Below, piece by piece: positions 35,152 through 49,022 of a stretch of 64,000 nt of DNA. Below the pieces are notes generated by a model. It saw only the letters and a program-made list of their open reading frames with translations. It was not told where the DNA came from and did no database searches. Source of the stretch: Psychromonas ossibalaenae ATCC BAA-1528. Lineage in GTDB: Bacteria > Pseudomonadota > Gammaproteobacteria > Enterobacterales > Psychromonadaceae. Within the stretch, counting starts at the first letter, position 1. The number at the start of each line of letters is the position of its first letter. Position numbers and translations under genes: made by a program. The stretch lies in the NCBI RefSeq assembly GCF_000381745.1, contig NZ_KB906967.1, positions 1 to 64,000 on the forward strand, read 5' to 3'.

Positions 35152-36447
35152 TTATTTATCAGACGATACCAGCTTAGCCTGCTCTTCTGAATAGATCATT
35201 ATCGGCTTTGATTCGCCTTTAATAACATTTTCATCAACCACAACTTTAGTCACATTTTCAACTGACGGTAAGTCATACATTGTATCCAGCAGTACTGATT
35301 CAACAATTGAGCGTAAACCACGTGCACCGGTTTTACGGCTCATCGCTTTTTTCGCCATGGCGATCAGTGCTTCTTCTCTAAACTCAAGTTCTACATTTTC
35401 TAAACCGAATAGTGCGGCATACTGTTTAGTAATTGCATTTTTAGGAGCCGTTAGAATTTCAACTAATGCAGCTTCATCTAATTCAGTTAATGTTGCCAGA
35501 ACAGGTAAACGCCCGATAAACTCAGGAATTAAACCATATTTAGTCAGATCCTGCGGTTCAACTTTTTTGAATGTTTCACTCAAAGAGTCTTTTGAATCAC
35601 TGTCACGTACTGTCGCACCGAAACCAATACCGGCACCGGTATCAACACGCTGCTCGATAATGCTGTCTAAACCGGAGAAAGCACCACCACAGATAAACAG
35701 GATCTTAGAAGTATCAACCTGGATAAATTCCTGATTCGGATGTTTACGTCCACCCTGCGGCGGAATCGAAGCAACCGTTCCTTCAATCAGTTTAAGCAGC
35801 GCCTGCTGAACACCTTCACCAGATACATCACGAGTAATAGACGGATTCTCTGATTTACGGGTAATCTTATCGATTTCATCAATATAGATAATACCGCGCT
35901 GCGCTTTCTCTGGATCGTAATCACATTTCTGCAGTAACTTCTGAATGATGTTTTCTACATCTTCACCAACATAACCGGCTTCGGTTAGTGTTGTTGCATC
36001 AGCCATAGTAAACGGCACATCCAATAAACGCGCCATGGTTTCAGCCAGTAATGTTTTACCGCTGCCCGTTGGACCGATTAATAAAATATTACTTTTACTC
36101 AGCTCAACACCATCAGCAACATCACCATGTTTTAAACGTTTGTAGTGATTGTATACGGCAACAGCTAATACTTTTTTTGCTGTATCCTGCCCAATCACAT
36201 AGTCGTCTAAATTGGCACGAATTTCATGTGGTGTCGGTAATTTTTTACTTTTATTGTCAGATTCGGCTGCACTTGTTATTTCAGCAATCTCTTCTTTGAT
36301 AATATCATCACAAAGATCAACACATTCATTACAAATATAAACAGAAGGGCCGGCAATCAGTTTTTTCACTTCATGCTGACTCTTACCACAAAAAGAACAA
36401 TAAAGAAGGCTGTTATTATCACCTTTATCGCCATGTTTATCTGTCAT
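35152..36447 (-). CDS. clpX: ATP-dependent Clp protease ATPase subunit ClpX
   Basis: ClpX is the hexameric AAA+ unfoldase that feeds substrates to ClpP. The 431-residue protein has an N-terminal zinc domain ([11 protein letters not shown] ... [10 protein letters not shown]), Walker A GPTGSGKT, Walker [11 protein letters not shown], the [19 protein letters not shown] pore-region segment, the GFGA ClpP-docking loop and the sensor-2 GARGLRS segment. It begins 16 bases after the clpP stop, an operon. AAAGGGT precedes the ATG. Confidence 0.97.
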
Positions 36448-36462
36448 TTGGTACCCTTTTAA

Positions 36463-37086
36463 TTATTTTCTTTGCGTCAGCACTGAATCAACAATGCCGT
36501 ATTCAACCGCTTCATCTGCGCGCATGAAGTTATCGCGATCGGTATCCTGCGCAATGATGTCAATATCTTTACCAGTATGAAATGCAAGTAACTCATTCAT
36601 ACGGTGTTTAGTTGCCAGAATTTCTTTAGCATGAATCTCGAAATCTGACGCCTGTCCCTGGAATCCGCCTAACGGCTGATGGATCATAACTTTGGCATTC
36701 GGCAGACAGTGACGTTTACCTTCCGCACCACTTGCTAGAAGGAACGCGCCCATGCTGGCCGCCATGCCCATACACACAGTGCTTACATCCGGCTTGATAA
36801 ACTGCATAGTATCGTAAATCGCCATACCTGCACTAATTGAACCGCCTGGAGAATTGATATAAATATAAATATCTTTTTCCGGGCTTTCAGATTCTAAAAA
36901 CAGAAGCTGTGCGGCAATAACGTTAGCCATATGATCTTCAACCGGGCCTGTTAAAAAGATAACACGCTCTTTCAATAAACGAGAATAAATATCATAAGAA
37001 CGCTCACCTTTTGCTGTTTGTTCCACAACCATAGGAATAAGCGCGTTACTAATTGGATCGGTGTTTCCAGCAAATGGGTTTGACAT
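36463..37086 (-). CDS. clpP: ATP-dependent Clp protease proteolytic subunit ClpP
   Basis: ClpP is the serine protease chamber used by ClpX. From the ATG at 37086 (AGGAAAG upstream) it has 207 residues, the standard length. Catalytic triad: Ser in [11 protein letters not shown], His in [10 protein letters not shown] and Asp in DTDRDNFM. It includes the short N-terminal propeptide region found in gammaproteobacterial ClpP. A longer in-frame start (37131) adds 15 non-conserved residues and lacks a ribosome binding site. Order tig-clpP-clpX-lon is conserved. Confidence 0.97.
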
Positions 37087-37173
37087 GTTCTTTCCTAGTA
37101 TATGTATATAATTTTTAATATTAGTCGGCATTATACCCGAAAACTTTAATGGCAGGGGCAGCCTGGGTATATA

Positions 37174-37209
37174 AATAAAAATGGCCCGAGTGAAATCACC
37201 CGAGCCATT
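37174..37209 (-). terminator. Terminator after tig
   Basis: On the minus strand a 14-bp stem (AATGGCTCGGGTGA pairing with TCACTCGGGCCATT, including G-U pairs) is followed by TTTATTT. It lies between tig and clpP, separating them transcriptionally at least in part. Confidence 0.8.
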
Positions 37210-37247
37210 GAAATGCCTAACTAGTTGTATTAATAGTAATTAAACTA

Positions 37248-38555
37248 TTAAGCAACCGTTTTGTTCATAACTTCATCGAACGATTTGTTCACTTCGGTTA
37301 CTTTAGCTTTTTCAATGATAAAATCAACTGCTTGCTCTTCTAATGCTACATTTTCCATGTTCTGCATCATTTCTTTGTTGTTTTTGTAGTATTCAATTAC
37401 TTCAGTCGGGTTTTCGTAAGCAGATGCAGCTGACTCGATAAGAGCCGTTACTTTATCCTGGTCAACTTTTAATTCGTTAACTTTGATTACTTCACCTAGT
37501 AACAGACCTACTTTAACACGTTTCTCAGCTTGTTCTGTAAACAGTTCAGCAGGAAGTTCAGGAAGGTTGTTAGGATCCATCTGCTTGCCGTAACGCTCCA
37601 TTGCCTGTTTGCGTAAAACATCAACTTCACCAGAAACAAGTGCTTTAGGCACTTCAATTTCGTTACCTTCAACTAACGCAGTTAATACTTTGTCTTTTGC
37701 AGTGTTTTTAAGTACCTGATCAAGTTCACGAACCATGTTTTGTTTAACATCAGTTTTCAGTGCATCCAGCTCGCCGCTTTCTACACCGAATTTTTGTACA
37801 AATTCAGGCGTAATTTCAGGAAGAATCTGCTCTTCAACTTTGTTTAAAGTAATAGCAAACTGAGCTGCTTTACCTTTAAGCTGTTCTGCATGGTACTCTT
37901 CAGGGAAAGTTACGTCGATAGTAAACTCTTCACCGGCTTTTTTACCTACGATACCTGATTCAAAACCAGGAATCATGCGGTTGCTGCCCAGTACGATCTG
38001 GAATGCTTCTGCTTTACCGCCTTCAAATACTTCACCGTCAATTGAACCTTCGAAATCAAGTGTTACTTGATCATCGTTTGCCGCTTCACGTTCAACACTG
38101 TTCCATTCAGCGTGCTGCTTACGCAGTGTTTCAATCATTTTATCAAGATCAGCTTCAGTTACTTCAGCAGACTCTTTTTCAACTGCTAACTCTTCAAGAG
38201 CGGCTAGTTTAACTTCAGGGTAAACTTCAAACGTTGCAGTGAATACGAAGTCATCACCTTTTTTACGTTCTTTTGGTGTTACCTGCGGGCCGCCGGCAGG
38301 GTTTAGTTTCTCAGCCATTACAGCTTCGAAGAAGTTACGCTGCATAAGTTCACCGGCAACTTCCTGCTGTACAGCAGCACCAAAACGTTTAGTAATTACA
38401 GATGCAGGAACTTTACCCGGACGGAAACCGTCAACACGCTGAGTTTTTGCTAGATGACGGATACGACCGTCAAACTCTTTATCAAATAAGTCTCCAGCAA
38501 CAGTGATTGTTAATGTGCGTTCTAGACCTTGTGTAGATTCAACAGAAACTTGCAT
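37248..38555 (-). CDS. tig: Trigger factor (ribosome-bound chaperone)
   Basis: Trigger factor binds ribosomal protein L23 and meets nascent chains first. The 435-residue protein has the ribosome-binding signature GFRPGKVP (about 44-51) in the N-terminal domain, an FKBP-type domain (about 150-245, with [17 protein letters not shown]), and a helical C-terminal chaperone domain. The length is as in E. coli (432). AAGGAAAT precedes the ATG. It heads the tig-clpP-clpX-lon-hupB-ppiD series. Confidence 0.97.
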
Positions 38556-39023
38556 TTTATTTCCTTTATCTTGTACGTTAAAAATTTAAATTAGCTAATT
38601 AAGAACATTATTTTCGACATTCTTAACTTCTAAGGTGTATTAGCTTTAGTAAGCCAGATAAAAAAATAACACCTCAGAGAAATTCTTGAGTTTAATTTCT
38701 ATGGTGAAATTTAAGACGCGCCATTATAGACACTGTTTTATCGATAGTCGAGTTTTACAAATCAGCAAATTTTACGTATCAAGCACAGTTTTGATAAAAA
38801 TTTCCGCACAACAGGCGCTTGTTAAGCTTATAACTCCCTTAGGTAAGGCATTTATTTTTGAGTAAAAACCGCAATAGGATATAAAAAAAGTCAACACTGA
38901 GGCGCTTATTTCCACTTCACTCCCCTTTTAATCCACTTTATCGCAAAGCGGTTGCCTCTGACTAAGCCTTCTACCTACACTAATGTTATCCACATAAATA
39001 GTAGATATTAAAAGGAACTTAAA
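38556..39023. other. Divergent intergenic region between tig and the ABC operon
   Basis: This 468-bp gap separates tig from the plus-strand ABC/LytTR operon and must contain promoters for both. The tig promoter is visible at 38723-38751. No clear promoter or LytTR-type direct repeat was identified for the ABC operon. Confidence 0.5.
38723..38751 (-). promoter_or_regulatory. Sigma-70 promoter of tig
   Basis: On the minus strand TCGACT, exactly 17 bases, then a perfect TATAAT. It lies about 170 bp before the tig start, implying a long leader. Confidence 0.55.
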
Positions 39024-39551
39024 ATGAATACGACAACACTTAAAATACTGCTTGCAAGCATGACATTTTCATTATTAATCAGCGTGCCGGCTTCTGCTGC
39101 GTCCAGCCAACAAACCTGGTCTACGCTGATGGAACAGTACACACAAACCCAGAATGAACAGTTTAATGCGCAGGATAATGTCGACAGTTTCGAAACGTAT
39201 CTAGCAGAGCATCCGGATAACGCTTTAGCTGAGTTATATACCGCCAGCAGTTACTGCTTTATCGGCCGTGATGCCTGGATGCCCTGGAACAAGTTAGATG
39301 CAGCGAATACCTGTATCGATAAAATGGAAACCGCTTTAACTCATATAGAACAGCAGTACCCGGATAACAGCGAGCAGCGTTTACGCAGCTATTTAACCTT
39401 TGGATTAACCGGCGCAGCCCTGCCGGATCGTTTTCAGATGTACCAGGTCAGCCAGGACATATTAAATAAGGCGAAAAATCACCCGGCATTCAGCCGCCTT
39501 CCCGAAAAGCTGCAGTTACAAGTATTCAATATATTATCAGGCAAACAGTAA
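39024..39551 (+). CDS. Secreted helical (TPR-like) protein, first gene of the ABC operon
   Basis: Not recognised as a named family. The 175-residue product has a signal peptide (MNTTTLKILLASMTFSLLIS ... SAASS, cleavage about residue 26) and no lipobox, so it should be periplasmic. The mature part is helical with a TPR-like unit (YLAEHPDNALAELYTASSYCFIGRD, about 60-85) and a second helix pair near AANTCIDKMETALTHIEQQ. AAGGAA precedes the ATG. It is 37 bases ahead of the ABC ATPase and probably belongs to the same transcript, suggesting a periplasmic helper of the exporter. Confidence 0.7.
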   Translation: MNTTTLKILLASMTFSLLISVPASAASSQQTWSTLMEQYTQTQNEQFNAQDNVDSFETYLAEHPDNALAELYTASSYCFIGRDAWMPWNKLDAANTCIDKMETALTHIEQQYPDNSEQRLRSYLTFGLTGAALPDRFQMYQVSQDILNKAKNHPAFSRLPEKLQLQVFNILSGKQ

Positions 39552-39588
39552 GCGCAATATTCATTGAATAATAGATAAGGAAAAATTT

Positions 39589-40278
39589 ATGCAGGCCGTT
39601 ATCAATGTTAAACAGATCGGCAGACAGTTTCTGCAGGGCACGCAGACCATCAACGCCTTAACTGCGGTCAGTTTAAGCATCTGCAAAGGTGAGTTTGTCG
39701 CCATTAATGGTTATTCCGGCAGCGGTAAAAGTACCCTGCTTAATATTATCGGCACGCTGGATAAACCCAGCAGTGGTGAGCTTGAACTGTTCGGTGATGC
39801 GGTTAACTTTAATGATGAGTCTTCATTACAACAATTTCGCGCACAGAAAATGGGTTTTATATTTCAAAATTTTAATTTGAATCCGGTATTAACCGCATTA
39901 GAAAACGTGCAGATGCCGCTGCTGCTGACCGATATGAACAGCAGGCAGCGGCGCAAAAAGAGTATTGCCGTGCTGACAAAAGTAGGCCTTGCCGATCGAA
40001 TCAACCACAAACCCGCGCAGCTTTCCGGTGGTCAGCAGCAGCGGGTGGCAGCTGCACGGGCATTAGTTTCCGATCCGCTTATTCTTTTAGCCGACGAACC
40101 TACAGCGAATCTTGACAGCGAATCGACCGAACAGCTGATGCTGGTGCTCAAAGAGATGAATGAGCAGTCGGGACTGACCGTCCTGTTTTCATCTCACGAT
40201 GAGCGCCTGTTAAAACATATCAGGCGTACCATTACCTTAAATGACGGGGTATTAATCACTTCGGGGAGTCAGCTATGA
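39589..40278 (+). CDS. ABC transporter ATP-binding protein (MacB/LolD class)
   Basis: The 229-residue ATPase has Walker A GYSGSGKST (about 42-50), the Q-loop FIFQNFNLNPVLTALENV, signature LSGGQQQRVAAARAL, Walker B LLADEPTANLD and a late SSHDERLL. The GTLDKPSSGELELFGDAV and FNLNPVLTALENV segments are typical of the MacB/LolD/FtsE branch, which works with FtsX-like permeases by moving substrates within the envelope rather than across the inner membrane. It overlaps the permease gene by four bases (ATGA). Confidence 0.9.
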   Translation: MQAVINVKQIGRQFLQGTQTINALTAVSLSICKGEFVAINGYSGSGKSTLLNIIGTLDKPSSGELELFGDAVNFNDESSLQQFRAQKMGFIFQNFNLNPVLTALENVQMPLLLTDMNSRQRRKKSIAVLTKVGLADRINHKPAQLSGGQQQRVAAARALVSDPLILLADEPTANLDSESTEQLMLVLKEMNEQSGLTVLFSSHDERLLKHIRRTITLNDGVLITSGSQL

Positions 40279-41513
40279 AATGGCTAAAATTAAGCTGGTT
40301 AAATGTACTGCGTAATACCAGGCGTTCAATCATTGCGGTTTCGATTATTGCTCTCGGCAGTTTTTCACTGATTATCGCATCGGGTTATGTGCTTGCCAGC
40401 TTTGAAGGGTTACGTGAAAGCACCATTCAGGGCGGACTTGGTCATATTCAGCTTGCACTGCCCGATGCATTTACCGATAAAGAGATTGATCAGGGTGGTT
40501 TTACCCCGCAGAAAAAACAGCAGCTGCAGCGCGATATTGAAGCCATGCCGGAAGTTCGCCTGACCACTGAGCGAGTACTGTTCGAAGGTTTAGCTTCCAC
40601 TGGCGATATTACCATCGCAGTGATCGGTAAAGGCGTCAATATCAATAAGGAACGCAAAATAACCCTGTTTACCCCGATTATCGAAGGCCGTAATCTGCCG
40701 AATGTAGACCTGCATAAACAAACTGAAACAGCAGAGCAGATCTATAGCGCGGTGATTGGCGAAATACTTGCCCGCGACTTAAAAGTTAAAGTAGGTGAGT
40801 CAATTACACTATTAGCAAGTACCAGTTATCAGGGAATTAACGCCATTGATGTTACGGTTGTTGGTATCAACCGCTCAGGTATTCCAGAATATGATCAGCG
40901 CAGTGTGATGATTCCCGTTTCGGCAGCTAAAATACTGCGTGACTCGGATACGGTTAACCGTTTAGTGGTATCACTGCGTTCAACTGCTGATACAGACTTA
41001 ATCAACAGCAGAATTCACTCTTCATTTAGCGATATTGAACAAAAAACCTGGCTGGAGCTGTTTCCTTTTTACACTAATGTGGTCTCTCTTTATAACAACA
41101 TCTTCGGAGTGATGGGATCGGTTATTTTACTGGTGGTGTTAATGTCAGTAAACAATACCATGGTAATGGCGATTATGGAGCGAGTTGCTGAATCCGGCAC
41201 CCTGCGCGCCTATGGATTCAGCAGCACCAGGATCGCTAAACTGTTTGCCACCGAGGGCATGATTATGGGCTTGTGCGGTGCGCTGCTGGGCATGCTGCTG
41301 GCAACACTGGTGATACTGTTTATTAATATCAGTCTGTTTGAAATGCCGCCGCCGCCGGGAAGAAGTGTTGGTTATCCGCTGATTTTAAACTGGAATATTA
41401 CTGCCGTCACAGTGATCTGTGTGACCATGATTTTCAGCTGTACAGCCGCCGCCTGGCTGCCGGCCAGAAAAATGCTTAAAAAGAGCATTATCGATGCAAT
41501 AAATCATCATTAA
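40275..41513 (+). CDS. FtsX/MacB-like ABC transporter permease
   Basis: A 412-residue inner-membrane protein with the MacB-type plan: a first helix at about 18-40, a large periplasmic domain (about 42-270), and three closely placed helices (about 275-300, 322-350, 370-395). The core FtsX segment includes VMSVNNTMVMAIMERVAESGTLRAYGFS. This class powers lipoprotein or small-molecule movement and tolerates one permease type working as a dimer. The overlap with the ATPase gene indicates a dedicated pair; the LolA-like gene behind it hints at a lipid-linked cargo. Confidence 0.88.
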   Translation: MKWLKLSWLNVLRNTRRSIIAVSIIALGSFSLIIASGYVLASFEGLRESTIQGGLGHIQLALPDAFTDKEIDQGGFTPQKKQQLQRDIEAMPEVRLTTERVLFEGLASTGDITIAVIGKGVNINKERKITLFTPIIEGRNLPNVDLHKQTETAEQIYSAVIGEILARDLKVKVGESITLLASTSYQGINAIDVTVVGINRSGIPEYDQRSVMIPVSAAKILRDSDTVNRLVVSLRSTADTDLINSRIHSSFSDIEQKTWLELFPFYTNVVSLYNNIFGVMGSVILLVVLMSVNNTMVMAIMERVAESGTLRAYGFSSTRIAKLFATEGMIMGLCGALLGMLLATLVILFINISLFEMPPPPGRSVGYPLILNWNITAVTVICVTMIFSCTAAAWLPARKMLKKSIIDAINHH

Positions 41514-41533
41514 AAAATTGAAAGGAAGCAGCT

Positions 41534-42286
41534 ATGCACTACTTAGCATATTTATGGTTAGCGTTGTTTACTGCGCAGGCCGGCGCACAAGAGCCCCCGG
41601 CCCCGGCAGAGTATTCGCAGCAGCAGATTAAAAACTGGCTTATTAAAGCAGACACTTATCGTCAGCCCTTTAAAAGCGGTGAACTTAAGACAACACTGAC
41701 TCTCTTTAAGGATAATAAACAAGCAGAAAGCAGCAGTTTCTTTGTACAGTTGAATGAATCCGGCGATTCACGTGTCACCATGTTAGATACGCGCAGCAAA
41801 GGTCAGAAAGTCCTGCTTACTGAAAGCGCCATGTGGCTGTATATACCACGCACCCGAAAAGCGATTCGTATTACGCCGATGCAGCGTCTGATGGGCCAGG
41901 CAAGTTACGGGGATGTATCATCACTAAGCTGGCAGCATGAATATCAGTGGGATAACAGCCCGGTGATAGAGAAGCTGAGTAATAACACCGCAAGTGTCTG
42001 CTTCAAAGTTCAGGCCACGCGTAAATCTGCAACTTACCGCTCTATCAATCTGTGTTTAGAAAAAGACTCATTACGTCCGGTTAATGCGGACTTTTATCTA
42101 GCCAGCGGTAAGTTAATGAAACAGGCCGTCTATCTTAGTTCCAGTAATTCTTCCGGCCTGATTGATCAGACTAAGTTTATACAGCCTGGTAAAAACAATC
42201 AGCATACCATGATGAAAAATACAGATTACTTAGAAAAGCAGCATAAGCAGACCATTTTCACTCGTCAGGGTTTTATTAAAAAATAA
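41534..42286 (+). CDS. LolA-like outer-membrane lipoprotein-sorting protein
   Basis: A 250-residue periplasmic protein with a signal peptide (cleavage after about AGA, residue 17-18). The mature protein follows the LolA-like fold family often annotated as outer membrane lipoprotein-sorting protein: the RQPFKSGELKTTLTLFKDNK strand pair, MLDTRSKGQKVLLTESAMWLYIP, RKAIRITPMQRLMGQASYGDV and the DSLRPVNADFYLASGKLMKQA end. This family shares an open barrel able to hold lipid. It is separate from housekeeping LolA. AAGGAAG precedes the ATG. Position between an ABC permease and a barrel protein suggests it ferries the exporter's cargo. Confidence 0.82.
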   Translation: MHYLAYLWLALFTAQAGAQEPPAPAEYSQQQIKNWLIKADTYRQPFKSGELKTTLTLFKDNKQAESSSFFVQLNESGDSRVTMLDTRSKGQKVLLTESAMWLYIPRTRKAIRITPMQRLMGQASYGDVSSLSWQHEYQWDNSPVIEKLSNNTASVCFKVQATRKSATYRSINLCLEKDSLRPVNADFYLASGKLMKQAVYLSSSNSSGLIDQTKFIQPGKNNQHTMMKNTDYLEKQHKQTIFTRQGFIKK

Positions 42287-42302
42287 CGGATCACAGACAG
42301 CT

Positions 42303-43511
42303 ATGCCTATTCATCAGCAGTTATTGTTTTTAATATTATCTTTTTTCACGGTGCTCAGTAGTGCGGAGCCGGCCTTTTGGGATGAACTGGATAACCGCTA
42401 TACGCTTGCCAGCCGCTTATTCACATACGATCACAGCCAGCCCAGAGGTGATTATGTAAATGAAAATGCTTTTCTCGCTTATCACAGTTATCAGCAGTGG
42501 GTATTAGCATGGCGTGCCGATAATCAGATTTACCAGGCGCCCGCTGAGGATCATTTAAGCGCTGAGGCACAGTTTGAATTAACTGAACTCTCCTGGTCGC
42601 ACAGCTTTTTAGACAGTGAGGGTGATCTCTGGCAGGCAGGTAAATTCAATCTGCCGCTGGATCCCGGTTATGCTTTTCAAAGCACTGCTTTCTTTGAATC
42701 AACGGCGAATCCTTTTGATGACTTTGCTTCCAGTGAAGGTATTAATATGCTCAGCGCCTCGTTATGGATAAAGAATTATTATTTAACTGCCGTAGTCGCT
42801 TTAGCTGGACAAGATAAAACTTACCAGGATAAAAAACAATGGGCTGTGATAGTGCAGCGCGATTTTGACGCCCTGTCCAGCAGCTTTATTGTGCAGCAGT
42901 ACCAGGGTACTAATCCGGGAGCCGGTACAACATTTACCTATGTTAACGGCGAAAGCTTGGAACTGCACGGCAGTGCTTTTATACGTAAAGGCAGTTTATG
43001 GTTAAACGGGTTTCATCAGGCTGTACCAGCAGGCTCCAATATTGAAGATAGTTTTGCAGAGAGAGACAATCAGTGGCTTACGGAAATTGTTCTAGGCAGT
43101 GTCTGGTCCGGTCTGTCACACCAGTTTTTAGCTGAATGGACTTATCAGCAGGAGAAACTTGCAGCGGCAGAGGTAAACAGCCTTTATCAGCTCAGTAATG
43201 GTCCAAGGCCGGATACAGATAATAACAATTCTCCTTTTAGTGAAGAGATCATCGCCCTGTACCAGCAGCGCTATCAGCAGCAGTATCTGTTCCTGCAGTA
43301 CCAGTACAGCATGACAGATCACACTATCACGGCAAACTCGTTGATAGGACAGGATCAAAGTGCATTATCACAAGTGAAATATGAATATCTGCCGAATCTG
43401 GATATAAGCCTATGGTTAGCTGTTGAACTGACTTCCGGCAGCGGGCAGACGGAATTTACTCAAATTCCCTGGCAGAAACGTTTACAGGCAGGTGTGCTAT
43501 GGAAAATATAA
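42303..43511 (+). CDS. Predicted outer-membrane beta-barrel protein of the ABC operon
   Basis: No named family was recognised. The 402-residue product has a signal peptide (cleavage about residue 21) and no lipobox. The rest is a series of alternating aromatic/polar strands (for example NAFLAYHSYQQWVLAWRA, LELHGSAFIRKGSLWLNGFH, QFLAEWTYQQEKL) ending in an amphipathic strand QKRLQAGVLWKI, which resembles a barrel closing strand although the last residue is Ile rather than Phe. These are features of outer-membrane barrels such as the DUF1302-like group. It lies in the ABC/LolA/two-component operon and overlaps the kinase gene by 13 bases, so it is probably the outer-membrane end of that system. 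Confidence 0.65.
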   Translation: MPIHQQLLFLILSFFTVLSSAEPAFWDELDNRYTLASRLFTYDHSQPRGDYVNENAFLAYHSYQQWVLAWRADNQIYQAPAEDHLSAEAQFELTELSWSHSFLDSEGDLWQAGKFNLPLDPGYAFQSTAFFESTANPFDDFASSEGINMLSASLWIKNYYLTAVVALAGQDKTYQDKKQWAVIVQRDFDALSSSFIVQQYQGTNPGAGTTFTYVNGESLELHGSAFIRKGSLWLNGFHQAVPAGSNIEDSFAERDNQWLTEIVLGSVWSGLSHQFLAEWTYQQEKLAAAEVNSLYQLSNGPRPDTDNNNSPFSEEIIALYQQRYQQQYLFLQYQYSMTDHTITANSLIGQDQSALSQVKYEYLPNLDISLWLAVELTSGSGQTEFTQIPWQKRLQAGVLWKI

Positions 43512-44509
43512 TCGTCAGCAGAGAGGATCTGCAGGAAGTTGTACAGTCAATCAAGATAACCTTTATTATCAGCAGTCTGATTGCGGCTTTTAACAGCCTG
43601 CTTATTACCGAAACGACTTTTATTACCCAGTTTTTAGCGGCTCAAAGCATCGGTTTAACCATGGTCAGCATCTACAGTATCACTAATATTCTTTATCCGC
43701 CTCTGATGAAAAAATTTATATACCAGTATTATTTCCTGCCCTTTCCGGTGTTAATTGCGGCATTAATTGGTATGAATTTTCTCCATGAGTACAGCACTTT
43801 TCTGCAGCTGTATGTCCTGATTCTGATCGTCAGTTTACCCGCTCTGCTGGTTTTTCAATATCGCAACAGCAATAAAAGCGCAGCGGCTTCGCTTAAGGCG
43901 GAAAAACAAAAAAGAGATATTAGTGAGAAGCAGCTGCTGGAAAGCAAATTACTGTTATTACAGGCACAGATAAACCCGCATTTTCTGTTTAATACCCTGG
44001 CTAATATCGATGCATATATTGATTATTCACCTGCGCAGGCAAAGCAGCTGCTGCAGAATTACACCAACTTTTTACGCCACAGCCTAAGAACAACACAAAG
44101 CATGCAGGGCACACTAGGCGATGAAATCGACCTGATTAATGCTTATATGAGTATTCAGCAGACCCGTTTTCCGCAGATTAAGTTTACTACAGATATAGAA
44201 CAGAACCTGTTAAGCAGCCCTGTTCCGCCTCTGCTTATCCAGCCGCTGATTGAAAATGCCATTATTCACGGCCTGGCTCCTAAAGGTAATCAGGGCTTGA
44301 TCACTTTAGAGATTAAAAAGCTTAATCAGCACCTTATTATCAGCGTCAGTGATAACGGTGTCGGCCTGAATGCAGATAAATGCGGCAATAACGGTATTGC
44401 ATTAGAAAATATCAAAGAGCGCCTGCAGCTCTATCAGGGGAAAGCGGGCTTTACACTTACACAGGCCCTGTCAGGAGGTGTTAATGCACAACTTAAACTG
44501 CCGCAATGA
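43499..44509 (+). CDS. LytS/YehU-type sensor histidine kinase
   Basis: A 336-residue membrane kinase of the His_kinase (PF06580) class. About four membrane helices occupy residues 20-125. A short coiled linker leads to the phosphorylation site QAQINPHFLFNTLANIDAYI (about 158-177) and the ATPase domain with PPLLIQPLIENAIIHGL and DNGVGLNADKCGNNGIALENI. It has no PAS, GAF or periplasmic sensor, so the membrane helices are the likely sensor, perhaps by contact with the ABC permease. It overlaps both neighbours and pairs with the LytTR regulator. Confidence 0.88.
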   Translation: MENIIVSREDLQEVVQSIKITFIISSLIAAFNSLLITETTFITQFLAAQSIGLTMVSIYSITNILYPPLMKKFIYQYYFLPFPVLIAALIGMNFLHEYSTFLQLYVLILIVSLPALLVFQYRNSNKSAAASLKAEKQKRDISEKQLLESKLLLLQAQINPHFLFNTLANIDAYIDYSPAQAKQLLQNYTNFLRHSLRTTQSMQGTLGDEIDLINAYMSIQQTRFPQIKFTTDIEQNLLSSPVPPLLIQPLIENAIIHGLAPKGNQGLITLEIKKLNQHLIISVSDNGVGLNADKCGNNGIALENIKERLQLYQGKAGFTLTQALSGGVNAQLKLPQ

Positions 44510-45239
44510 CAGCGGCAGAAAATACCGCGCAATTATTGCCGAAGATGAAGCACCGCTGGCACACGTCTTAGCCAAAGCGTTAAATGAATTATGGCCGGAT
44601 CTGGAGCTGGTCAAGATATGCAGTGACGGCAATGAAGCCTTGAGTCTGCTGCAGACAGAGTCCTTAGACATCGCGTTTTTAGATATCTCCATGCCCTATA
44701 AAACCGGAATAGAAGTTGCACGGCAATGTCTTGCAGAAAAAATTCCGACCTTGCTGGTATTAGTTACCGCCTACCCCGATTATGCACTGCAGGCATTTGA
44801 GTTTAATGTCTGTGATTACCTGGTAAAACCGCTCTGCCGGGAACGTTTAGCTGAAACTATCAAGCGCCTGCAGGAGCGTTTACAAAGTCCTTCAACAGAC
44901 ACAGATCTTAAGCAGCATCTACAGTTTCTGGCGGTACAAAAAGGGGCTGTTAACCGCTTAATTTCTGTTGATGATGTCTGCTATTTTGCCAGTGATCAAA
45001 AATACGTACAGGTAGTCACCAAAGATGATTCATATTTAATCAGCAAAACTCTGGCTGAATTAGAAAAAGAGCTGGATGATAAGCAGTTCTGGCGGGTACA
45101 CCGCAGCAGTATCGTTAATATCAGGCAAATAGAGCAGAGCAGGAAAACCCTCACCGGACGCTTAGAGTTAACCATGAAAGAGTGTCAGGATCACCTCACC
45201 GTCAGCCGTAAGTATCTGCATCTGTTTAAAGCAATGTAA
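44484..45239 (+). CDS. LytTR-family response regulator
   Basis: Partner of the preceding kinase. A receiver domain (AIIAEDEAPLAHVLAKAL; phospho-acceptor Asp in FLDISMPYKTG; Lys in CDYLVKPLCRERL) is followed by a C-terminal LytTR DNA-binding domain (ISVDDVCYFASDQKYVQVV ... FWRVHRSSIVNIRQIEQ). ATG 44484 is chosen over a GTG two codons earlier because AGGAGGT is correctly spaced for it. The gene overlaps the kinase by 26 bases. It probably activates its own operon; no binding repeats were located. Confidence 0.9.
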   Translation: MHNLNCRNDSGRKYRAIIAEDEAPLAHVLAKALNELWPDLELVKICSDGNEALSLLQTESLDIAFLDISMPYKTGIEVARQCLAEKIPTLLVLVTAYPDYALQAFEFNVCDYLVKPLCRERLAETIKRLQERLQSPSTDTDLKQHLQFLAVQKGAVNRLISVDDVCYFASDQKYVQVVTKDDSYLISKTLAELEKELDDKQFWRVHRSSIVNIRQIEQSRKTLTGRLELTMKECQDHLTVSRKYLHLFKAM

Positions 45240-45370: not shown

Positions 45371-46819
45371 ATGAAAATAAAAAACATGTTCAGCAGGGGA
45401 TCTGCGGCGGCCGCCCTGCTGCTTAGTTTAACAGCCTGCTCCAGTAATACAGAACAGGCTAGTGATAACTGTGCACAAGCTGCAGGAACCTGGATAGTGC
45501 AGGAAGTCGTTGATGACACTCAATGTGGCGGTCAAATAAAAACAGAAAAGTATCGTTATACGGTTAGTCAAGATCACTGCCGGATATCTATAGCTGAAAA
45601 CGGGGCTGTCGGTCAGATGATAGGCTCAGAAATTCACTGGCCTGCTTACTCTTTTTTCAATAACGGAGGCACCGTTGAGATGTCCGAATCAACAACCAAA
45701 CTTCAAAACGGTAAGTTAACCGGACTGACCAGTTGGGATTGGAGTAATAGTGATATGGAGTGTTCAGGCACGATCAGCAGAACTGGCTACATAGCCGCCG
45801 ATAATCCACTGCTCTCTCCAGCAGAAGGAACTTTTGAGCACATTTTTTCAGTAAATGCACCAAATGCTAAGCAGGTCTATCTTGCCGGAGAGATGACCGA
45901 CTGGCAGCCTAATGTACTTAAAATGAAAAAAGGCTCCGACGGTGTATGGTTTTTACCTGTGTATCTGGAGCAGGGAGCCTGGCAGTACAAATTTGTCATT
46001 GACGGAGAGTGGACCTATGACAAAACCAATCCAGTTACCACGGATGACGGGTTTGAGGGGTACAACTCAATTATTGTATTAGGTGAAGAAAATCCTGACG
46101 CTAAGGTTAATGCCGCGATCCCTCACGGCACAGTAGAAAAAATAAATATACAAAGTACAGCCTTAGGTACAAACAGCCCGTTTATGGTTTATCTTCCACC
46201 GGGGTACTCGCAGAACAGTGAACAAAACTACCCGGTGTTATTTCTATTGCACGGTTACGGAAATAATGAAGGACAGTGGACCCGCGACGGTAAAATCCAC
46301 AACTTTATGGACAACTTTCTTAATCAAGGCTGGATCCAGCCGTTTATCGTGGTTATGCCCTTCGGTGATACCAGCATGTACGTGGGAGATTATGAAACCC
46401 ATATCATAAATGAAGTGAGGGCTTATGTGAACGAACATTACCGGGTGAAAACAGGCAAAGCTTCTACAGCAATTTCCGGTACGTCGATGGGCGGATTCGG
46501 CGCATTTTATTTAGCATATCGTCATCAGGATGTGTTCGGTTTATCGGTTCCTCTTAGCGGCTTTTTTGATATGAGTTATTATCCTGAGCTGGGCAGAGAT
46601 GGAAAAATAAGCATGGACTCTGAACTGCATTTCTACTGCGGCACAGACGACAGCACAAGCTTTGCCTCCAATGAAGCCCTGATAAAAAGATTACAAGAAA
46701 ACGATGTTAACTTTACTTATCAAACAGCCGCCGGTGGACACACCTGGCGCTACTGGAACGGCATCAGCAAAGACTTTCTAAAGGTGGTTTCTGACTACTT
46801 TAATAAATCCGCAATATAA
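45371..46819 (+). CDS. CBM48-esterase lipoprotein (alpha/beta hydrolase)
   Basis: A 482-residue lipoprotein: signal peptide with lipobox ALLLSLTACSS (Cys about 22). An N-terminal small domain (30-145) is unassigned. Residues about 155-240 form an immunoglobulin-like CBM48/AMPK-type glycogen-binding domain (FSVNAPNAKQVYLAGEMTDW ... YKFVIDGEWTYDKTNPVTTD). The C-terminal 220 residues are an esterase-D-type alpha/beta hydrolase: PVLFLLHGYGNNEGQW, nucleophile Ser372 in GTSMGGFG, and His457 in AGGHTWRYW. Similar CBM48-esterases act on acetyl or feruloyl groups of plant or algal polysaccharides; the substrate here is unknown. AAAGGT precedes the ATG. It is monocistronic. Confidence 0.85.
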   Translation: MKIKNMFSRGSAAAALLLSLTACSSNTEQASDNCAQAAGTWIVQEVVDDTQCGGQIKTEKYRYTVSQDHCRISIAENGAVGQMIGSEIHWPAYSFFNNGGTVEMSESTTKLQNGKLTGLTSWDWSNSDMECSGTISRTGYIAADNPLLSPAEGTFEHIFSVNAPNAKQVYLAGEMTDWQPNVLKMKKGSDGVWFLPVYLEQGAWQYKFVIDGEWTYDKTNPVTTDDGFEGYNSIIVLGEENPDAKVNAAIPHGTVEKINIQSTALGTNSPFMVYLPPGYSQNSEQNYPVLFLLHGYGNNEGQWTRDGKIHNFMDNFLNQGWIQPFIVVMPFGDTSMYVGDYETHIINEVRAYVNEHYRVKTGKASTAISGTSMGGFGAFYLAYRHQDVFGLSVPLSGFFDMSYYPELGRDGKISMDSELHFYCGTDDSTSFASNEALIKRLQENDVNFTYQTAAGGHTWRYWNGISKDFLKVVSDYFNKSAI

Positions 46820-46895: not shown

Positions 46896-49022
46896 TTACT
46901 GCAGAACATCCCGCTCCGCTGTACCAATAAGATCGGTGATGGTGTTTTTTTCGGTATCAATTAAAAAGTTGTCACTCGCCTGCCCCGTGGCAAATTTTTC
47001 CATAATCAAAAACATAGCATCAAAACGAGTTTTAAATACTTCTCCGACACTCAGCTCATTCGGATCCTGGCCGTTATTCATAAAGACCGCAGGCTCAAAA
47101 CTGCGCAGTTCATCACTCAGGAGCTGATAATGCGGCAGGCGCTCCGGATCGATGTCGCGGAAAGCTAATTCATCGGCATTACGCAGACGATAAAAGTCTA
47201 CCGCCAGCTCTTCACCGCTCCACTCACGGAAATCACTGAGCAGCAGGCCGTTATCCAGCGCCAGCTGTTCAGCCTGAATACGGGCGGCGCGCCAGTCTTT
47301 AATAAACTGTTTTAAATCACCGTTATTAGACTCAAGCTCACAGCCCTGCAGCGGCTTGTCTAACACATCAGCCAGCTGACAGACTGTGAAGTCAGTTTCA
47401 ATCTGCGACATAATCAGCATCTGCTCACCATCCATATTCAGCAGCATAAGACGCATATCCAGCGGCCAGTCATCGGGAAGAAAACGCAGACGAGTCAGCT
47501 CTTTCAAATGCCAGTCGGTAAACTGGTAATAACTTTCCGACTCAAGTACCTCTTTAGTCCAGATACCCGGATCATCAATTTCAGTGAGGTGTCGATGCTC
47601 TTCCTGATAGTGCTCAAATAACTCGTCAAACCGCGCTACCTCTTCAATAATGACAGTTTCTACTTCAACCTGGTTATGCGGGCGCAGTGTCAGCAGTTTG
47701 TAAGCCGGAATATAGCCCGCCAGAGAGGGAGCCTGAATATTAAACAAAGTATGGTTTTTGCCGTCAATCTGGTAACTTTTCACTCCGGTGTCATTGAAAT
47801 GCATATGCCCGCCGACGTGAATACTTAACCCCGTCGCAGCTAATGCTTTGCTTGTTCCGTCCTCCGGCATGCGCTCCAGCTGAAAAGCCCCTTCACCAAA
47901 GAGATCTTCAATATCTTCCGACGCACCGTTATAAAAATCAGTCATGGGAAAGTGACTAAAGGAAATCAAGGTTTTATTGTGCTTTTCAGCCGCCGTTACC
48001 ACATCACCAATCCAGTCGATCACCTGCTGTTTATGGCTAAGCATCACATTATAACCTGCACTGGATGACCCCTCGTAACCGCCGGGATCAGCAGGGCCGC
48101 CTTCAGAGCCGGGCTTAGGGCGGTATACATTAGCATCAATAGCCAGTAACCATAGACCTTCAACGGGCTCAACTAAATAGCTGGAATCCGGCACCATGGA
48201 GCAGTGGCTGTAGTCCTGCCCTGCCGTTTTATATTCGCCGCCAGTCCCCTCATAGCAGATTTCATACTGACGCTGTTCGTAACCCGCCTCCTGCAGAGCT
48301 TTCTCATAGCGGTAATGACTACGTGCTTCAGCACTGCTGTAGGGGGTTTCAAAATATAAGTATTCAGGCTGCGGGGTAAAACCATGCCCGCCCAAGATGT
48401 CCATAATATCCCGATAACCCCACTCTTGAACCTCCTCGGTACAAATCGGCGTTAATTCTTGTCCGCTGTTATCACTGCCGGGTACACACTGGCCTGCCCC
48501 CTCACTCCAGATCCCCTGCTGTTTACCGGACAGCCCTAAGTAATCACTTTTACCGGCAGGTTGAGTGAAAGGACGTACCGGATCATGATTACCCGGCGCG
48601 GCAAAAAACTGTATGCCGTGCTCCCTGCTGTACTGGTCAAAGATTTCAACCAGACCGCGCATATGTACCGGCTGTCCGTCATCACTAAAATCTCCCGGCA
48701 GAGCGACATATTTGATCCCCCGTGCCGCGATGTCATCAAGCGCGGCAATCATGGCAAAATAATTTTCATTAAATAAACGGGTAGAATTGAGCTGCGACTT
48801 CATGGTGCGAATGGTCGCCCCCTGACCGCTGATACTGTTTTCCAGACCGTCAAAAGAGCCGTCTTGAAAATCACCATAAACATCGTGGAAATGAATATCC
48901 GGCATAAAAGCAATCTGTAAATCCTGCGTTTCCGGCGGTGGTTCACTCGATGACTCCGAATTACATCCTGCCAGTATGGCGCCTGCAAGCAAAGAAAATA
49001 CTAATTTTGTTTGAAGTTTCAT
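46896..49022 (-). CDS. Metallophosphoesterase-domain lipoprotein
   Basis: A 708-residue lipoprotein (lipobox ILAGCNSE, Cys19). The calcineurin-like metallophosphoesterase core spans about 35-440 with the five metal motifs: MPDIHFHD, LPGDFSDDG, APGNHDPV, FSHFPMTD and VGGHMHFND. A C-terminal part of about 250 residues is not recognised. The long insert between the third and fourth motifs includes several Cys and aromatic residues. Such secreted lipoproteins occur in marine bacteria and may release phosphate from organic esters, but the substrate cannot be read. It is convergent with the esterase gene. Confidence 0.82.
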   Translation of the reverse strand: MKLQTKLVFSLLAGAILAGCNSESSSEPPPETQDLQIAFMPDIHFHDVYGDFQDGSFDGLENSISGQGATIRTMKSQLNSTRLFNENYFAMIAALDDIAARGIKYVALPGDFSDDGQPVHMRGLVEIFDQYSREHGIQFFAAPGNHDPVRPFTQPAGKSDYLGLSGKQQGIWSEGAGQCVPGSDNSGQELTPICTEEVQEWGYRDIMDILGGHGFTPQPEYLYFETPYSSAEARSHYRYEKALQEAGYEQRQYEICYEGTGGEYKTAGQDYSHCSMVPDSSYLVEPVEGLWLLAIDANVYRPKPGSEGGPADPGGYEGSSSAGYNVMLSHKQQVIDWIGDVVTAAEKHNKTLISFSHFPMTDFYNGASEDIEDLFGEGAFQLERMPEDGTSKALAATGLSIHVGGHMHFNDTGVKSYQIDGKNHTLFNIQAPSLAGYIPAYKLLTLRPHNQVEVETVIIEEVARFDELFEHYQEEHRHLTEIDDPGIWTKEVLESESYYQFTDWHLKELTRLRFLPDDWPLDMRLMLLNMDGEQMLIMSQIETDFTVCQLADVLDKPLQGCELESNNGDLKQFIKDWRAARIQAEQLALDNGLLLSDFREWSGEELAVDFYRLRNADELAFRDIDPERLPHYQLLSDELRSFEPAVFMNNGQDPNELSVGEVFKTRFDAMFLIMEKFATGQASDNFLIDTEKNTITDLIGTAERDVLQ

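Follow-up and report, generated by a model that had tools for sequence, protein, structure and literature searches.

The closest described system to the operon reported here is the BBJ23–BBJ29 cluster of Borrelia (PMC13078400, 2026), in which TPR proteins, a MacB/LolE-like ABC ATPase and permease, a LolA-like carrier and an outer-membrane barrel are encoded together. The LolCDE–LolA sorting pathway shares its permease fold, ATPase family and LolA-superfamily carrier with the operon, and the AmeABCD apolar monoterpene efflux system shares the layout of an inner-membrane pump, a LolA-superfamily periplasmic protein (DUF1329) and a DUF1302 outer-membrane protein (PMC6394551). On the regulatory side, the pyruvate-responsive BtsS/BtsR and YpdA/YpdB systems likewise pair a PF06580 kinase with a LytTR regulator, and the survey of gammaproteobacterial LytS/LytTR systems treats the BtsS and YpdA types only (PMC5552118). 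Experimental work on the present module was not found in the literature searched, where a single paper touches the operon: VPA0015, VPA0018 and VPA0021 of Vibrio parahaemolyticus appear there only as STRING-predicted partners with expression data (PMC10469919). These are an ATPase, a LolA-domain protein and a LytTR regulator whose numbering fits an operon of the Psychromonas type, and from annotation and numbering we infer that they belong to the same operon.

The window analysed is a stretch of 64,000 nucleotides (positions 1 to 64,000 of contig NZ_KB906967.1) from Psychromonas ossibalaenae ATCC BAA-1528, a genome whose closest relatives in the named collection are P. aquimarina and other Psychromonas. 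Within it, a TPR-like protein, a type VII ABC transporter and a LolA-like carrier are encoded in one operon, as in BBJ23–BBJ29. The features of the locus are:

Predicted LytTR operator, 38911..38940, + strand: direct repeat TCCACTTCA-N12-TCCACTTTA, 113 bp before gene 1
Gene 1, 39024..39551, + strand: 175-aa exported alpha-helical TPR-like protein of a family without a name; signal peptide visible
Gene 2, 39589..40278, + strand: ABC ATPase of LolD/MacB type with intact Walker A, LSGGQ and Walker B motifs
Gene 3, 40275..41513, + strand: 4-TM type VII permease, LolE/LolF-like; MacB_PCD and FtsX domains
Gene 4, 41534..42286, + strand: predicted LolA-like periplasmic lipid carrier, PF17131; signal peptide
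Gene 5, 42303..43511, + strand: predicted outer-membrane beta-barrel of Occ/OprD/AlgE fold, family without a name, 402 aa
Gene 6, 43499..44509, + strand: PF06580 (LytS-class) membrane histidine kinase without a named sensor domain
Gene 7, 44478..45239, + strand: response regulator with LytTR DNA-binding domain; alternative ATG start at 44484

The seven plus-strand ORFs at 39024–45239 are present as the first-pass annotation described them, including the 4 bp overlap of the ABC genes (40275–40278) and the 13 bp overlap of barrel and kinase (43499–43511). The 26 bp overlap given for kinase and regulator holds with the regulator start at ATG 44484 and is 32 bp from the GTG at 44478.

Predicted gene products

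The product of gene 1 matches no Pfam family, and its AlphaFold model is helical and confident (pLDDT 86.9). The best fold match is the TPR domain of Sgt1 (5an3; Z 12.9), which ties with 14-3-3 proteins, so 'TPR-like' is a description of the modelled fold only. A LolB-like identity was considered for this protein and rejected, as it is helical and carries no lipobox; a lipobox is also absent from genes 4 and 5. Pfam scans assign ABC_tran to gene 2 and MacB_PCD plus FtsX to gene 3, a protein of 412 aa with four hydrophobic segments. Its best solved relatives are LolE and LolF, so the earlier label 'MacB-type' is better replaced by LolE/LolF-like. LolF is reported to be homodimeric (PMC13078400), and the gene 3 product may be so too. 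Gene 4 matches PF17131 (LolA_like, E 4.8e-21) and not PF03548, and its solved relative is the LolA-superfamily protein NE2245 (3buu; E 2.5e-43).

The same genome encodes two true LolCE genes on contig C5 and LolA itself at C5:77349, whereas gene 3 scores 93.9 bits against the LolCE equivalog TIGR02212, below the cut-off of 362.45. Because housekeeping LolCE and LolA lie elsewhere in the genome, the Psychromonas module is a paralogous system. Contig C21 has a second ABC cassette (about 36375–39532), in which two LolCE-like permeases come after a LolA-like match.

No Pfam family is matched by gene 5, and among 47 of its homologues a single one matches DUF1302 (E 1.3e-4). Structure prediction supports the barrel proposed in the first-pass annotation: the AlphaFold model is an outer-membrane barrel of moderate confidence (pLDDT 69, pTM 0.69) that aligns with OccK7 (VIA-align Z 21.1, rmsd 3.4 A over 292 residues), with other Occ/OprD porins and with the alginate exporter AlgE (Z about 19). 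These Occ/OprD/AlgE folds, at Z about 19–21, are the best; Omp85 is not among the matches listed, although the barrel may still be related to it. A C-terminal Phe, the usual outer-membrane assembly signal, is present in 69 of 74 homologues. As modelled, the fold resembles small-solute uptake porins as much as exporters.

Gene 6 contains the PF06580 His_kinase and HATPase_c domains and gene 7 the Response_reg and LytTR domains. The PHFLFN, N and G boxes of the kinase are invariant in the kinase alignment. N-terminal to the catalytic part there are hydrophobic segments only, and the Pfam scan finds no 5TMR-LYT, GAF or other named sensor domain, in agreement with the kinase with membrane helices only that had been described from the sequence. 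Close relatives of this kinase occur in other settings, either alone or with a LytTR regulator, and at one such locus the neighbours are a regulator and a protein resembling gene 1, the ABC genes being absent. Psychromonas sp. Urea-02u-13 seems to have a frameshift in the kinase gene, and downstream of its regulator there is another kinase copy that is likewise broken, reflecting either decay or an assembly error.

Conservation of the module and its relatives

The order gene 1–ATPase–permease–LolA–barrel–kinase–regulator is found in most of 80 loci anchored on the permease, from Vibrio, Photobacterium, Aliivibrio, Ferrimonas, Moritella and others, with operon-like spacing between the genes. 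Where these loci have enough flanking sequence, kinase and regulator are present in 66 of 68, the barrel in 66 of 68 and gene 1 in 65 of 68, although the loci are mostly Vibrionaceae and not independent; order-wide and class-wide draws were used as checks for this reason. In the order-wide draw, an independent one of 295 genomes, match coordinates were compared at cut-offs of >190 bits for the LolA-like protein and >230 bits for the kinase. A strong LolA-like match occurs in 34 genomes from seven families; every one of them encodes a full-length kinase no more than 16 kb away on the same strand, and in 26 the distance is at most 4 kb. The LolA-like and kinase alignments were used since the barrel sequence diverges fast and a barrel query by itself undercounts the module. 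In the class-wide draw, 6 of the 9 strong LolA-like loci that are not truncated by contig ends carry a kinase or regulator, so the two-component pair is not universal outside the host's order. The module is present in only 5 of 24 Psychromonas genomes searched.

Gene order varies by blocks. In Aliagarivorans and Oceanospirillum the block barrel–kinase–regulator stands ahead of gene 1–ATPase–permease–LolA, and in one family of the host's order the two blocks are 5–15 kb apart and both are retained, with several unrelated genes between them. The blocks share one neighbourhood even when separated. The first-pass annotation had tied its reading to conserved linkage of the two-component genes with the ABC and LolA-like genes, and that linkage is kept in other genomes, in both the 80 loci and the order-wide draw. 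It is far beyond chance and supports the seven genes, the two-component genes included, as one conserved unit. A phage origin was also considered and rejected, with a single weak match in 50,697 phage records.

An ABC–permease–LolA–barrel core lacking the two-component pair sits in fatty-acid or polyketide-type clusters on plasmids of E. coli, Enterobacter, Rahnella, Aliiroseovarius and Paraburkholderia. On the E. coli IncK2/Z plasmid NZ_CP060058 (11878–23074), a fatty-acid-like cluster has its own TPR/ABC/LolA-like/barrel exporter, surrounded by an SDR, an ACP, a FabZ-type dehydratase, a ketosynthase, an enoyl-CoA hydratase and a protein with the FeeM domain of N-acyl amino acid synthases. 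Similar FAS-type clusters are found on Enterobacter and Rahnella megaplasmids, the former with FabZ, ACP, two ketosynthases and a malonyltransferase and the latter with a similar set, and in Aliiroseovarius and Paraburkholderia the core is surrounded by other ketosynthase or acyltransferase clusters. Because these relatives lie in such clusters, the gene content speaks for a core that handles a lipophilic acyl cargo; for the form with the two-component pair, this kind of cargo is extrapolated from relatives that are about 25–35% identical. No recurrent flanking gene beyond the seven, and no cargo or biosynthetic gene, was found beside the Psychromonas/Vibrio form, whose cargo may be synthesised at another locus or be taken from the surroundings. 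Downstream of the operon, the window encodes a secreted esterase that has a CBM48-like, glycogen-binding domain (45371–46819) and a predicted secreted metallophosphatase (46896–49022); apart from close relatives within Psychromonas, neither gene is found again next to the operon.

A predicted operator ahead of gene 1

In 57 of 76 loci the region ahead of the operon holds a predicted tandem LytTR-type site, ACCATTCAC-N11-ACCATTCGT. The iterated matrix, ACC(A/G)TTCAC-N11-ACC(A/G)TTC(G/A)T, reaches a score of at least 14 in these loci, typically about 100 bp before gene 1, and gives no match in shuffles, none on the reverse strand and 1 of 80 in coding sequence; it was fitted to the upstream regions that it scores and many loci are related, so these counts are not independent. 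Near-exact 9-bp direct repeats at a spacing of 20–23 bp number 132 in the upstream regions and 14 in shuffles. A strong matrix site is absent from 19 of the 76 regions, including those of Psychromonas, which have a repeat of different spacing. Operator-like sites are weak in some of the split families, and in the family with separated blocks the genomes differ in whether such a site precedes the barrel or gene 1.

The Psychromonas repeat is followed by TCGCA, and both its layout and this tail are common to the Vibrio sites. A further module-bearing Psychromonas genome has a Vibrio-type site. Judged in the window alone the repeat is not significant, as about 0.2 pairs of this kind are to be expected in 350 bp. 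Across four Psychromonas genomes it is perfect only at the operon promoter and no other site has one mismatch or fewer; other regulon members were not found in these genomes, as every further match differs at two positions and such matches are not more frequent than those to the reversed pattern. None was found in 20 mostly Vibrio genomes either, where the extra strict matches inspected are all inside ORFs. Since none of the four Psychromonas genomes has a second site within one mismatch of the repeat, the simplest inference is that the regulator is dedicated to its own operon, and it probably controls these seven genes alone. The 57 predicted operators and the single target support dedicated autoregulation, more strongly than the first-pass annotation was able to; sensing of the transporter by the kinase, as suggested there, is a possibility.

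Candidate functions and comparison with known systems

The best explanation of the module, and its most likely function, is a self-regulated Lol-like relay that exports a lipophilic cargo, a reading held with moderate confidence. The inner-membrane ATPase and permease would pass the cargo to the LolA-like carrier, which would cross the periplasm and deliver it to or through the Occ/AlgE-fold barrel, with the TPR-like protein as a putative periplasmic adaptor. The membrane kinase would detect the cargo or a membrane state that it causes, and the LytTR regulator would bind the tandem repeat ahead of gene 1 and switch the operon, probably nothing else. The LolE/LolF and LolA-family relatives, the fold of the barrel and the lipid-cluster relatives all favour the envelope-spanning route for lipid-like cargo that had been proposed from the sequence. 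More tentatively, the arrangement might amount to flux sensing, in which the LytS-class kinase, though devoid of a sensor domain, would monitor either the Lol-like transporter's state or the lipid cargo while this is in the inner membrane, and through a private operator would tune only the transporter that clears it.

Other functions are compatible with parts of these data. The module could serve in a stress response, detecting amphiphiles or antimicrobial peptides of exogenous origin and pumping them out much as Bce modules do; its dedicated and apparently self-only control, a kinase without a sensor domain and the failure to find a biosynthetic gene recurring beside the operon are in keeping with this, as is the monoterpene tolerance conferred by AmeABCD with its LolA-superfamily protein and DUF1302 barrel (PMC6394551). 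However, the relatives lacking the pair are tied to endogenous acyl or polyketide synthesis and neither permease nor kinase is of Bce type, making this unlikely. That it is a second Lol pathway sorting a special set of lipoproteins is suggested by the closeness of LolE and LolF among solved permeases and by the superfamily of the carrier, but is quite unlikely given that housekeeping LolCE and LolA are encoded elsewhere, that the permease falls far short of the LolCE cut-off and the carrier belongs to PF17131, that the operon includes no LolB-like lipoprotein and that the relatives lie in small-molecule lipid clusters. Finally, a few genomes encode related kinases but no such transporter, as would be expected if the two-component genes were co-transcribed passengers regulating something else. 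This is highly improbable: kinase and carrier co-occur in 34 of 34 genomes, their linkage survives rearrangement, and the Psychromonas operator lies only before the operon, with the other strict Vibrio matches inspected falling inside ORFs.

The module, which is widespread in species of Vibrio, Photobacterium and Aliivibrio and is present in other marine bacteria, is a clean and apparently single-target system for studying how lipids might travel to the outer membrane by a Lol-like route besides the sorting of lipoproteins. With it one could ask which signal a LytS-class kinase lacking a sensor domain detects, and the operon promoter could serve as a reporter for finding the cargo.

The parallel with peptide-sensing modules of Gram-positive bacteria drawn in the first-pass annotation is weak and holds only loosely. 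BceB-type permeases have about 10 TM segments, and Bce modules use a BceRS-type kinase with an OmpR-type regulator, whereas the Psychromonas permease has four hydrophobic segments and the PF06580 kinase is paired with a LytTR regulator. Compared with LolCDE–LolA, the operon has a single permease gene, a PF17131 carrier, an outer-membrane barrel, a TPR-like protein and a dedicated two-component system. The Borrelia cluster, from a spirochaete, has a barrel of the Omp85 family, the Psychromonas barrel being modelled with an Occ/AlgE fold, and a two-component pair or operator is not described there (PMC13078400). AmeABCD is driven by an RND pump rather than an ABC transporter (PMC6394551). With other LytS/LytTR systems the module shares the kinase/regulator pair and the paired direct repeats at the target promoter, here as a predicted site. 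LytS and BtsS carry a 5TMR-LYT or GAF sensor domain, GAF in the case of BtsS (PMC5552118), whereas the Psychromonas kinase has neither in the Pfam scan and is linked to a lipid-type transporter. New in the present analysis are the tandem LytTR-type sites predicted upstream of the operon, with probable control of a single target.
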